A stretch of 64,000 nt of DNA, taken from NCBI RefSeq assembly GCF_014646875.1, contig NZ_BMOC01000004.1, positions 62,001 to 126,000 on the forward strand, written 5' to 3'. A model generated the notes under the pieces. The model did no database searches and had not been told where the DNA came from. It saw only the letters and a list, made by a program, of their open reading frames with translations. This DNA is from Halobellus salinus. Its GTDB lineage: Archaea; Halobacteriota; Halobacteria; Halobacteriales; Haloferacaceae. Every line of letters begins with the position of its first letter. The stretch's first letter is position 1. Made by a program: the position numbers and the translations under genes. Shown one piece after another: positions 20,621 through 60,748 of this stretch.

Positions 20621-23503
20621 ATGGCAACAGACAAAGATAGACATCGAGCGATGTTCCTCGCAGTACTGATGATCCTCAGTATCTTCGCGGGGACCCTCGC
20701 GTTTTCCGGGAGCGCAGTGGCAGCCTCCGATCCGGAAGTGGATGGAGCGAACATTACGAATACGACAGTCGTGGAGACGAGTAACAACACCCACTCGATC
20801 GAACTCAACTCCACGATCAACGCGAGCAACAGTACGAGTATAGATTACAACCTGTCGCTATCGGACGGGGGAAACAATTTCGACCTCTCGAACGCTGACA
20901 ACAGCACGATCCAGGTTAACGACGATCAAAACATCAGCAGCATCACGACCTCAATCGACAACACGACGGATAATTTCACTGCGACGGTTACTCCAGACGG
21001 AAACGGACTCGACGACGAGCAGATCAACCTCAGTTTCGATCTGACCGGCGTGGTTGCACCATCGGTCAGCAGCGATGAGGACTACCAGGTTCGGTTCACG
21101 GTGGACAACAACACCGATGGGATTATCGAAAACTCGACACAAGTCGACCAGATCACCGTCCAGAATACGGCCTCCGGTAGCCCCGAACTCGTCGACGTCG
21201 TCCACTACCAGGACACCGGTGACGAGGGCGCCGGCGTCGAGCTGTCGTTCAGCGAACCGGTGAAGATCCCGAGTTCCAGCGACGTCACGCTGGTCGACGA
21301 CGACGGCAACACCGTCGCCGCGACGCTGAACCCCGCGCCGTCCACCGGAACGCTTGACGGGCGGTACTTCCTCGACACCAGTGGACAGGTGCTGACCGGC
21401 GATGTCGAGGTCGACCTCACGAGTGACATCGAGGACGCGGACGGGAACGCGCTCGTGACCGGCGACACGGAGGACAACGTCTCCGTGACGGTCGCGCCGC
21501 AGACGGTCCAACTGAACGACGACAAGACCGTCTACGAAGGTGGCAACCTCGCGATCGTCAGCAGCAACACCAACGTCGATGTCGATACCGAGGGCCCGAA
21601 CAACTTCTTCTTCGAGGGGTCGACGGACACGAACAGCGAGGTGTTCGTGCTGAACACGAGCGACCGTGACCTCGGCGAGTACAACGTGAGTATCGACGGG
21701 AGTAACATCGACAACACGCAGTTCACGCTCCGCGATCTGCAACTGGATATCGCAGCCGACGACACGAACGTCTCGACCGACGACACAATCGAGACCGACG
21801 TCAGCGCGGTCGCCGGTAATCGCGACATCGAAGCGACGCTCCTGGACAGCAGCGACGACGAGATCAACACCAGTAGCGTAACCAGGCTGGACGGCCAGGG
21901 CGAAGCCGACGTCGACTTCACCACTGCCACCGCCGACGACGGTAGCGAACTCGACACAGGCACGTACACGGTTGAAGTGATTGACAACGCCACCGGTGTG
22001 ACGGTTGAATCCTCGGAGATCACTGTGAGCCAAGCCGACGATGAAGAAGCCAATTTCGCTACCAACGTCATCACCGAACAACGTGGTGACATCCTCGAAG
22101 CCACCGTCGAGATGACCGAAACCTCCGAAGCGACGCTCACCTTCGGCTCCGCTGACGACGGCGTGGTCGCGAACGCCACCGTCGAGGACGACGATGGCGA
22201 CGACGAAGTGACCGTCTACATCAACACCTATCGGCTCGACAGCAGTGTCAGCGGTGACGTGTTCAACGTCGACTCCGATAGCGACGATAACGTTCTCGCA
22301 GAGAACCTCGAAGACGGAACCGACGACCTCGTCGACGCGGGTGACTACGACCTCGAAGTCCAGTCCGGCAACCAGGGTGTCAGCACCGGGCAGGGTGTCA
22401 CCGACGCCGACGACGTCGCCACGGTCACACTCGAAGAGCGCAGCACGGACGCGCTCCGAATGTGGACCGGCAGCTCCGGCGAACTCAGCCCGTCTGACCT
22501 CGAAGACGTGAACGACGCGATCGAGAACGGCGAGATCACCCAATCGAACGATGTCGCGGTGGGTGACCTCGCGGTCCACCAACTCGAAGCGTCCGGCTTC
22601 GAAGGTGCGCTCGACGCACGCGCCAACGAGGACGTGACCTCGCAGTTCGAGACGCTCGTCCGGAACGGCCCGATTAACCTCACCATCGAAGAAGCAAGCC
22701 CGGGCGCGAACCAGGACGCCTCGGAGCTCAACCTCAGTTACGGTGACAACGTGACCGTCATCGCGGACGGTCCGAACGACACGTACTTTGTCGTCGTGGA
22801 CACGAGCGTAGTCGACTTCGACGCGCCGCGTGACGAGCAGCTTCCGTCCGACGACGACACCGAACTGGAGACGAACTTCACCGTCTTGCAGGACGACGCC
22901 GGATTCGACTTCACGCCCGATGACGAGTTCGACGACGACGAGAACGCCGAGACGTTCGTCGAGTTCACCGCCGAAGAGCCCGAGGCGAGCGTCGACGAGC
23001 CGTTCAACGTCTCCCAAGCAGACGGCCAGACGGTCAGCGGCACGACGAACATCGCACCGGGCACGGAACTCCGGCTCCGCGTCCGCAGCCAGAGCGGCGT
23101 GAGCCCGAGCTTCCTGAAGACGGCATCGCCCGTGGTCCAGTCTGACGGGACCTTCGGTGCGACGTTCGACTTCAGCGGGCAGAACATCGGAGACGAGTAC
23201 GACATCGTCGTCGCCAACACGCTCCTCGCCAGCGACGAAGAGGAGAGCGGCGAGGTCGTCGAGGCAGTCGAGACCGCCACTGCGACGCCTGAACCCGACA
23301 CGGACACAGCAACGGCCGGGCCTGACACCGACACGGCGACGCCGGACGAGCAGGATACGGCCACGCCCGACGAGCAGGACACCCAGACCTCGATGAGCAC
23401 CGAGGAGCCGACGTCCACCCCGACCAGCACGCCTGGCTTCGGTGTGATCGTCGCGCTGACGGCCCTGCTCGCCGCTGCGCTGCTCGCCATCCGGCGGGAC
23501 TGA
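20621..23503 (+). CDS. S-layer glycoprotein 2 (PGF-CTERM), tandem paralogue
   Basis: This 960-residue protein has a signal sequence (AMFLAVLMILSIFAGTLAFSG), an Asn/Thr-rich N-terminal part with dense N-x-S/T sites (for example NNTHSIELNSTINASNST), a C-terminal ~590 residues strongly similar to S-layer gene 1, a Thr/Asp/Glu-rich stalk, and the archaeosortase signal STPGFGVIVALTALLAAALL. About 100 extra residues relative to its neighbour lie in the N-terminal half. Codon use is uniformly GC-rich, unlike the mosaic neighbour. Either protein could form the main lattice. Confidence 0.92.
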   Translation: MATDKDRHRAMFLAVLMILSIFAGTLAFSGSAVAASDPEVDGANITNTTVVETSNNTHSIELNSTINASNSTSIDYNLSLSDGGNNFDLSNADNSTIQVNDDQNISSITTSIDNTTDNFTATVTPDGNGLDDEQINLSFDLTGVVAPSVSSDEDYQVRFTVDNNTDGIIENSTQVDQITVQNTASGSPELVDVVHYQDTGDEGAGVELSFSEPVKIPSSSDVTLVDDDGNTVAATLNPAPSTGTLDGRYFLDTSGQVLTGDVEVDLTSDIEDADGNALVTGDTEDNVSVTVAPQTVQLNDDKTVYEGGNLAIVSSNTNVDVDTEGPNNFFFEGSTDTNSEVFVLNTSDRDLGEYNVSIDGSNIDNTQFTLRDLQLDIAADDTNVSTDDTIETDVSAVAGNRDIEATLLDSSDDEINTSSVTRLDGQGEADVDFTTATADDGSELDTGTYTVEVIDNATGVTVESSEITVSQADDEEANFATNVITEQRGDILEATVEMTETSEATLTFGSADDGVVANATVEDDDGDDEVTVYINTYRLDSSVSGDVFNVDSDSDDNVLAENLEDGTDDLVDAGDYDLEVQSGNQGVSTGQGVTDADDVATVTLEERSTDALRMWTGSSGELSPSDLEDVNDAIENGEITQSNDVAVGDLAVHQLEASGFEGALDARANEDVTSQFETLVRNGPINLTIEEASPGANQDASELNLSYGDNVTVIADGPNDTYFVVVDTSVVDFDAPRDEQLPSDDDTELETNFTVLQDDAGFDFTPDDEFDDDENAETFVEFTAEEPEASVDEPFNVSQADGQTVSGTTNIAPGTELRLRVRSQSGVSPSFLKTASPVVQSDGTFGATFDFSGQNIGDEYDIVVANTLLASDEEESGEVVEAVETATATPEPDTDTATAGPDTDTATPDEQDTATPDEQDTQTSMSTEEPTSTPTSTPGFGVIVALTALLAAALLAIRRD

Positions 23504-23935: not shown

Positions 23936-24211
23936 ATGACGACGGCGGTGAAAGTCGATGACGACGCGAAGTCCCGACTCGAAGAACTCCAGGCCGAAAT
24001 CCGTCTCCAAACGGGGCGAAAGGTCACGCAACAGGAACTCCTGACACGACTGATCGACAACGCATACGAGTCACGCGAGGAGGTCATCGACTCCTTCCGG
24101 GAGTCGTCCGTGCCGCTCTCGGAGGCGGAGAAGGAGGCGATGCGCGAGGCCCGTTTCAATTCCGGCGTCGAAACCGACGAGGACGACATCGACGACATCC
24201 TCTACGGATGA
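23936..24211 (+). CDS. VapB-like antitoxin
   Basis: This 91-residue acidic protein begins with a strand-helix pattern (AVKVDDDAKSRLEELQAEIR) and an internal TQQELLTRLIDNAY helix, typical of short ribbon-helix-helix-type antitoxins, with a disordered acidic tail that would wrap the toxin. Its stop overlaps the start of the PIN-domain gene by four bases (ATGA), the standard arrangement of a VapBC operon. Autoregulation is expected for such pairs. Confidence 0.75.
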   Translation: MTTAVKVDDDAKSRLEELQAEIRLQTGRKVTQQELLTRLIDNAYESREEVIDSFRESSVPLSEAEKEAMREARFNSGVETDEDDIDDILYG

Positions 24212-24642
24212 CAGTCATCGTGGACACGGGCGTCCTCTACGCCGAGCACGACACGGACGCGACGAGACACGAGGCTGCTACAACAGCACTGGATTCGGTC
24301 TACGATGGCGAGTTCGGACAGCCGTACATCAGCGACTTCATTTTCGACGAAACGATCACACTAGCCCGTACGCGGACGGGATCGTTCGACATAGCCAGGC
24401 GGCTGAGTGACCGGCTAATAGGGCACGAAGGGTTTCCGCAGGTATTCGAGCTACTACGGGTCTCTGCGGGCCCGTTTTCGGACGCAGTAGACGTGTTCGA
24501 GCGGTACAACGATCAGGAACTGAGCTTCACCGATGCGACGACCGTCGCGCTGGCCGAGCGACACGGCATCGACCGCGTGTTGAGTTTCGACGACGACTTC
24601 GACGGCATCGTTCGCCGACTCGATCCCGCAACCGTCGCGTAG
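24208..24642 (+). CDS. VapC-like PIN-domain ribonuclease toxin
   Basis: This 144-residue PIN domain shows the acidic active-site set: Asp6 (VIVDTGVLYA), Glu48 (FIFDETI), Asp109 (LSFTDATTVALAE) and Asp near 128 (VLSFDDDFDGI). VapC toxins cleave tRNA or rRNA when freed from VapB. Translation is coupled to the antitoxin by ATGA overlap. The length is usual for the family. The pair lies between the S-layer genes and aglJ and may stabilise this region. Confidence 0.83.
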   Translation: MTVIVDTGVLYAEHDTDATRHEAATTALDSVYDGEFGQPYISDFIFDETITLARTRTGSFDIARRLSDRLIGHEGFPQVFELLRVSAGPFSDAVDVFERYNDQELSFTDATTVALAERHGIDRVLSFDDDFDGIVRRLDPATVA

Positions 24643-25746: not shown

Positions 25747-25875
25747 ATGCCACGAGATCAGGGATCAGTGACCGACCAAGAGCTCGAAGCGCTTCGCGAC
25801 GGGATGGCGAAACAAGGGGAAGCACTCCGTGAAGCGCTCGCTGAAGATCTCGGTGGCGATCCCGACGACTACTGA
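25747..25875 (+). CDS. Small acidic protein, 42 residues, unknown function
   Basis: A 42-codon frame starts four bases after the aglJ stop. It reads MPRDQGSVTDQELEALRDGM followed by an Ala/Glu-rich helix and an acidic end (DPDDY). The composition is typical of haloarchaeal proteins and the distance suggests co-transcription with aglJ. I do not recognise a family. A chance frame in GC-rich DNA remains possible. Confidence 0.4.
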   Translation: MPRDQGSVTDQELEALRDGMAKQGEALREALAEDLGGDPDDY

Positions 25876-25987
25876 CAGCGTCCGGTCACCGACGGCGAGT
25901 GAACCGCTGTGGTGAGTTTTCGTACAGTATTTTCAAACCTTTCACGCCTAACACTCTTTACAGAACGTACCGTATCCCAATCCATCG

Positions 25988-26359
25988 ATGTCTATCGACC
26001 GAGACACCTTCGAGAATGCGAGCGAGGACGAACTCGCAGACCTTTCAGCTCCGGATCGGGTACTCGGGTTCCTCGCGGCCCACGCGGATCACGCGTTCAA
26101 AGCTCGTGAGATTGCGTCCCGGATCGATGTCGACGAAGGGGCAGTCAGCACTGCCCTCTCACGATTGAAGGATCGTGACCTGGTCGAACACAAGGCTACG
26201 TACTGGGCGGTGACTGACGACGCCGAGCGCCTCGAAGGGTACAGCGGCTACGAGCGAGCGACTGAACTGTTCAACGACCGTCTCGGTACCGAAGACGAGG
26301 AGGCGTGGCGCGAGCACGCCCCCCAGAGACTACACCCGAGCGTCGAGGAAGAACAGTGA
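25988..26359 (+). CDS. Winged-helix antitoxin/regulator of a PemK-like toxin
   Basis: This 123-residue protein has a winged helix at residues 20-85 (VLGFLAAHADHAFKAREIAS, then GAVSTALSRLKDRDLVEHK), a MarR-like arrangement, and an acidic C-terminal tail. Its stop overlaps the GTG start of a MazF/PemK-like gene (GTGA at 26356-26359). In haloarchaea such winged-helix proteins serve as antitoxins and autorepressors of the coupled toxin. The gene appears intact although the toxin does not. Confidence 0.72.
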   Translation: MSIDRDTFENASEDELADLSAPDRVLGFLAAHADHAFKAREIASRIDVDEGAVSTALSRLKDRDLVEHKATYWAVTDDAERLEGYSGYERATELFNDRLGTEDEEAWREHAPQRLHPSVEEEQ

Positions 26360-26706
26360 CCGACGACGCAGCTCCGATCTTCGAACGGGGCGATGTCGTC
26401 TACGGTGACGACCCGTTCAAAGGTGACGAGGACGCTCGACCCTGGCTCGTTCTCTCGAACCACGAGGGACGACCGTTCCACGGCGAACAGTACATCCCAG
26501 TCACGCTCACGACGAGATCCTGGATGGATGGCCTCATCGATATCCCCGAGGAGAGTTGACTTCGCGGCGGGACCCCGGACGAGAGTCGGATCGTTCCGTG
26601 GGGCGTCCAGTCGATCGACCGCGAGGATATTGACTTCTGGCAGGGGCGTCTCGCCGAGACCCTCGTCGACGAGGCGGTTGCAGCACTCGTCGAGGAACTC
26701 GAATAA
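26356..26706 (+). pseudogene. PemK/MazF-like toxin interrupted by an in-frame TGA
   Basis: From GTG 26356 the frame encodes a PemK-like start (FERGDVVYGDDPFKG, RPWLVLSNHEGRPFHGEQY, IPVTLTTRSW) and stops at TGA 26557-26559 after 67 residues. The same frame continues without shift as LRGGTPDESRIVPWGVQS and onward to TAA 26704-26706, giving the expected C-terminal half. The stop lies where a Trp (TGG) would fit, as in PEESW-L. One G-to-A change would account for it. The antitoxin upstream is intact. Whether a truncated product or readthrough occurs is unknown. Confidence 0.75.
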
Positions 26707-60434: not shown

Positions 60435-60604
60435 AATCCACGGTATGTTCGCTCCGCTTCTCACTTCGTTCGTCGCGAGAACGCCCGAGGCGGGATTTGA
60501 ACCTCGGTCGCTCACTTCGTTCGCTCCCTGATTCAAATCCACGGTATGTTCGCTCCGCTCCTCACTTCGTTCGTCGCGAGAACGCCCGAGGCGGGATTTG
60601 AACC
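60435..60604. repeat. Direct repeat containing a 3' fragment of tRNA-Asp
   Basis: A ~69-base sequence occurs at 60435-60503 and again at 60536-60604, offset 101 bases. Each copy ends in the acceptor and T-arm complement GCCCGAGGCGGGATTTGAAC. The second copy continues into the intact tRNA-Asp, while the first diverges after AACC. This is the pattern left by site-specific integration into the 3' end of a tRNA gene, or by partial duplication. Confidence 0.75.
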
Positions 60605-60655
60605 CGCGTCACGACCGTGACAGGGTCGTATGATGGGCCACTACACCACCCGGGC
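60583..60655 (-). tRNA. tRNA-Asp (GTC), copy 1
   Basis: The minus strand folds as a complete cloverleaf: acceptor GCCCGGG paired with CTCGGGC, anticodon stem CGACC/GGTCG with loop CTGTCAC giving anticodon GTC, and T-arm GCGGGTTCAAATCCCGC. Its 73 bases include the discriminator G. CCA is not encoded. A second identical copy lies 20 bases upstream on the same strand. Confidence 0.95.
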
Positions 60656-60675
60656 AGGCCACGCTCGAAGCAAAA

Positions 60676-60748
60676 CGCCCGAGGCGGGATTTGAACCCGC
60701 GTCACGACCGTGACAGGGTCGTATGATGGGCCACTACACCACCCGGGC
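60676..60748 (-). tRNA. tRNA-Asp (GTC), copy 2
   Basis: This is identical in cloverleaf sequence to the copy at 60583-60655 and in the same orientation. The two are probably co-transcribed with a 20-base spacer. The TTAATTAGAC-like sequence at about 60775-60785 upstream could be its promoter. Confidence 0.95.

Follow-up and report, generated by a model that had tools for sequence, protein, structure and literature searches.

Is a toxin gene that carries a single premature stop codon a toxin recently lost, a short protein with a role of its own, or an error in the recorded sequence? The question is raised by two overlapping genes in Halobellus salinus, within a stretch of 64,000 nucleotides (hereafter the window) on contig C4; the genome amounts to 3.07 Mb in 54 contigs. 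An open reading frame of 123 amino acids (25988–26359, + strand) is followed by a toxin frame that begins with the GTG at 26356, the two sharing four nucleotides (GTGA) that contain the antitoxin's own TGA; the antitoxin is intact and overlaps the toxin start, as had been described from the sequence alone. The toxin frame (26356–26703, + strand) has one in-frame stop, a TGA at codon 68 (26557–26559), placed by the frame and the alignment. Sixty-seven codons precede it and form with it the 5' part of the gene (26356–26559), as delimited by the frame, a Pfam match and the alignment of relatives; 48 open codons follow and, with the TAA at 26704–26706, make up a conserved and now untranslated remainder (26560–26706) recognized from the frame, substitution counts and comparison with the nearest relative, G004. 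An alternative start at the GTG at 26305 is mechanically possible (84 amino acids); the alignments of relatives begin at 26356. Our answer is that a single nonsense mutation, turning an invariant tryptophan (Trp) codon into a stop, very probably inactivated the toxin of a haloarchaeal type II module not long ago and left the antitoxin intact.

MazF toxins are RNA-cutting proteins, and several observations place the interrupted gene among their relatives. With an X at the stop, the window's toxin frame matches PF02452 (PemK_toxin) over residues 10–112 (26.2 bits, cut-off 23.1), a family matched at E 0.01 by 39 of 49 open members, the other 10 falling below that. On both sides of the TGA the frame aligns in a single frame with open relatives, at no more than 88% identity. 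Because both sides align in this way and the PF02452 match spans the stop, the interrupted frame is not a chance one, and the earlier description of a frame intact on either side of the TGA stands. An AlphaFold2 model was made for an open relative, L031, rather than for the window copy (49 sequences; pLDDT 86.7); according to Foldseek and structure alignment it adopts the MazF barrel fold with a C-terminal helix. Foldseek ranks 4mdx first (E 2.7e-6), and the VIA Z is 12.9 for 4mdx and 14.0, the highest, for 5wyg. Z is at least 8 for 149 of 992 aligned chains, and each of the 50 matches listed is MazF, Kid, MoxT or a chain titled as a toxin or interferase. L031 is thus like the MazF/PemK mRNA interferases (e.g. 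Bacillus subtilis MazF/EndoA, PDB 4mdx; PF02452) in fold and size, and an Arg is aligned in the RP motif of both, whereas identity is only about 20% and the sequence profile gives E 0.015. The window pair differs from them further in its MarR-like partner and in its truncated toxin. The model points to a family of predicted endoribonucleases with the PemK/MazF fold, of which the window copy would be a broken member and not a working one.

The predicted fold also indicates what the stop removes. Strands 69–72, 79–89 and 93–100 and helix 102–116 of L031, whose numbering is that of the window plus one, lie at or beyond the window's stop. With the TGA at codon 68 no full-length toxin is encoded in this genome, and the loss of the last three of six predicted strands together with the C-terminal helix most likely leaves the window toxin dead, since such a fragment would be unable to fold or to cut RNA.

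The upstream gene carries a MarR_2 domain (31.5 bits, cut-off 27), and we take this MarR-like winged-helix protein to be the presumed antitoxin and autorepressor of a chromosomal type II toxin–antitoxin (TA) module, an assignment based on sequence. Among the eight commonest classes of gene spacing, the 4-nt overlap of the window is found in 91 copies and the next class in 10. Ahead of the pair, an alignment of 126 upstream regions reveals a conserved element (TTTCAC..CTAACACTCTTTACA) within 25914–25987 (+ strand), which is probably a promoter/operator. PADLOC returned no match for the L031 toxin and winged-helix matches only for the antitoxin. The MazF partners given in the part of PMC2701414 consulted are AbrB, RHH, a MazF/ccd entry and XF1863, none of them MarR-like.

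Other features of the window surround the pair. A VapB-like gene, with no Pfam family over the cut-off, and a PIN-domain VapC, both open, lie just upstream at 23936–24642. A 42-aa ORF (25747–25875) without a Pfam match follows the glycosyltransferase gene and is 67% identical in G004. A probable surface protein of 960 aa, with DUF7827 and a PGF-CTERM motif, is encoded at 20621–23503, and two tandem tRNA-Asp (gtc) genes, about 20 nt apart, occupy 60583–60748.

How old is the stop? The main alignment comprised 105 distinct full-frame copies of at least 55% identity, copies with the same first 150 nt being merged and L101 left out; 88 of these are open and 17 carry 18 stops. The sequence-only reading had suspected a Trp codon at the TGA, and column 68 is indeed Trp in all 88 open copies. 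Against its nearest open copy the window toxin has a dS of 0.85, a dN of 0.051 and a dN/dS of 0.060, with 19 synonymous and 6 nonsynonymous differences 3' of the stop. Judged from these data the stop is young: the frame beyond it is intact, only two amino-acid changes after it are private to the window, and dN/dS is 0.06. Two such nonsynonymous changes in about 109 sites put its age at roughly 0.018 substitutions per site at most. The family behaves similarly: measured against their nearest open copies, 15 nonsense copies have a median dN/dS of 0.120 and open copies one of 0.131 (P 0.59; copies less than 2% from a neighbour left out), so that stops in the family are generally young. Exceptions are L163, which is relaxed (dN/dS 0.72, two stops), and L024, with many nonsynonymous differences after its stop.

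A frame conserved as much after the stop as before it might also be expected if the TGA were recoded or suppressed and a little full-length toxin were still made by readthrough. We hold this to be extremely unlikely. Both the stop codon and its position vary between copies, and nonsense copies lie very close to open ones (L101, L097 and L094 are 2, 8 and 11 nt away over 705 nt), which indicates that conservation here reflects only youth. Moreover, ARAGORN called genes at 46 of 48 candidate tRNA loci, none of them for a stop-reading tRNA (of the two loci without a call, one is 179 nt long and may hold an intron), and a search for tRNA-Sec gave nothing over the cut-off.

The young knockout of the window is one of many. 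Relatives match at E 1e-3 in 74 of 99 genomes, other PemK groups included, and at E 1e-25 in 118 of 392 genomes of the order; a further 57 matches came from plasmid records, and no relatives were found in phage records or in viral contigs. When plasmid records were added and identical stretches merged, 188 loci gave 142 distinct copies, in which the toxin is open in 96, interrupted by nonsense codons in 22, frameshifted in 16 and partial in 8; the assignment to the partial or open class may be wrong for some copies, and a stricter rule leaves 90 of 142 open. One copy that is open even under this rule, L068, is split by a TnpB element. Two different TnpB-coding elements (L063:1340–3001 and L068:1619–3001) interrupt the toxin gene at one and the same position, around codon 16, in copies from two genera, an indication that they share a target site.

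This frequency bears on the possibility that the TGA arose in sequencing, as the sequence-only reading had allowed, or in assembly, and that the toxin is in fact intact. In favour of it, the genome is a 54-contig draft and, apart from the TGA, the toxin frame is conserved and free of damage. Yet nonsense codons interrupt 22 of the 142 distinct copies, so that a real mutation is more likely. Among the nonsense copies are some from plasmid records labelled complete (N. luteum; L101 and L174, which agree over all of 705 nt), and another stop is held at the same codon by two differently named plasmids, L041 and L043, identical there. An error is accordingly improbable.

The same reading had also offered a 67-residue product with a different role. 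Such a product might be retained as, for example, a decoy or regulator, and an independent copy, L007, likewise stops at codon 68. The 18 stops of full-frame copies are nevertheless spread over ten or more different codons, the fragment lacks half of the predicted fold, and no clade shares a truncation. On a tree of the 105 rows it takes 16 changes to account for the 17 interrupted copies, as many as with shuffled labels, and the starred branches alone force nine; most stops are therefore separate events, and a retained short product is very improbable. Twelve of the 18 stops fall in five Trp columns, namely 30 (5), 56 (1), 68 (2), 82 (2) and 95 (2). A special preference for Trp codons was considered and rejected, the count being within expectation if transitions are 4–6 times commoner per route (P 0.08–0.16); with a lower transition ratio these columns would hold more stops than expected (P 0.04 or less). 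Nonsense copies make up 17 of 105 here and 1 of 31 in a sister PemK group (41–50% identity; P 0.07), a weak comparison in which the 31 were counted by eye.

Recent inactivation, the preferred reading, is also in keeping with the lopsided way in which these pairs break. Beside the 38 toxins with nonsense or frameshift lesions the antitoxin is open in 27 cases, damaged in 7 and not found in 4, whereas beside the 96 open toxins it is open in 89, partial in 2, not found in 4 and cut by a nonsense codon in one. That one, L129, is the sole open toxin among the 142 copies with an upstream antitoxin cut by a stop. Breaks of the toxin only thus outnumber those of the antitoxin only by 27 to 1 (sign test, P 2e-7; partial and not-found rows left out), an excess that a real TA pair predicts. 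Loss of the antitoxin while the toxin still works should be lethal, whereas loss of the toxin alone should do no harm, and the toxin would consequently break first.

Comparison with G004 suggests what may follow. Its glycosyltransferase is 87% identical to that of the window, and its genes follow the same order, VapC, glycosyltransferase, small ORF, antitoxin, toxin, DnaJ. Of 14 such regions compared within the genus, the other 13 have neither the TA pair nor DnaJ next to the glycosyltransferase. The G004 VapC frame (L212) diverges after about residue 123, and VapB was not found there. Both genes of the pair are damaged in G004, the antitoxin by a 14-nt deletion and a TAG, the toxin by indels and two TAG codons, and codon 68 of this otherwise broken syntenic orthologue is still Trp. 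Together with the invariant column, the conserved post-stop frame and the low dN/dS, this makes recent inactivation the best fit of the three options originally put forward. In a three-way comparison over both genes, private synonymous and nonsynonymous changes number 17:6 in the window and 16:28 in G004 (Fisher P 0.0047); after the stop they are 3:2 and 5:11 (P 0.33), counts too small for a test.

The following course of events may be envisaged. A predicted RNA-cutting toxin would normally be held in check by the winged-helix protein, which would also bind the conserved upstream element. Once no more than 67 residues of the toxin are made, the module would be silent, while the antitoxin would still be made, would still repress its own promoter and may, for now, neutralize related toxins on incoming plasmids. 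No second copy of the window's toxin family was found in the same genome, so the antitoxin may be kept open by such anti-addiction or by mere recency. Another PemK toxin gene of that genome (L191, C5:9561–9890; open, 106 bits) lies outside the family. After loss of the toxin the whole locus would decay, as in G004.

Such decay has parallels in bacteria. Passages of two papers describe chromosomal TA systems of Escherichia coli as lost through nonsense mutations and deletions and drifting to inactive toxins, and cite Mine et al. (2009) for the decay of ccdO157 and other chromosomal loci (PMC2654758; PMC7167474). The window pair likewise appears as chromosomal TA decay by nonsense mutation; ccdO157, as described there, concerns another toxin family in one species, whereas here the hosts are archaeal and the species many. 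The anti-addiction module ccdEch of Erwinia chrysanthemi, whose chromosomal antitoxin could neutralize a related plasmid toxin according to a passage of PMC2654758, may be analogous in that respect, the window's toxin being broken. The window case is an unremarkable instance of TA decay in a family with frequently broken toxins, and a new case of a known form in a haloarchaeal branch where our literature searches found no paper on this pair.

Taken alone, the window gene is an ordinary young pseudogene; its value lies in the series of dozens of broken toxins across many haloarchaeal genera, most of them broken independently and not long ago, and some of them differing from an intact copy at only a few positions. 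Such near-identical pairs offer natural material for finding out if an orphaned antitoxin continues to give protection against the intact module, and for asking whether culture selects for loss. It is conceivable, though on balance rather unlikely, that toxin-null, antitoxin-plus alleles are repeatedly favoured in haloarchaea, either through immunity to plasmids bearing the intact module or because the toxin is selected away when strains enter culture. If this were true, about a quarter of the sampled copies would be alleles of this immune or cultivation-made kind, which keep arising anew and soon disappear, instead of slowly drifting relics.
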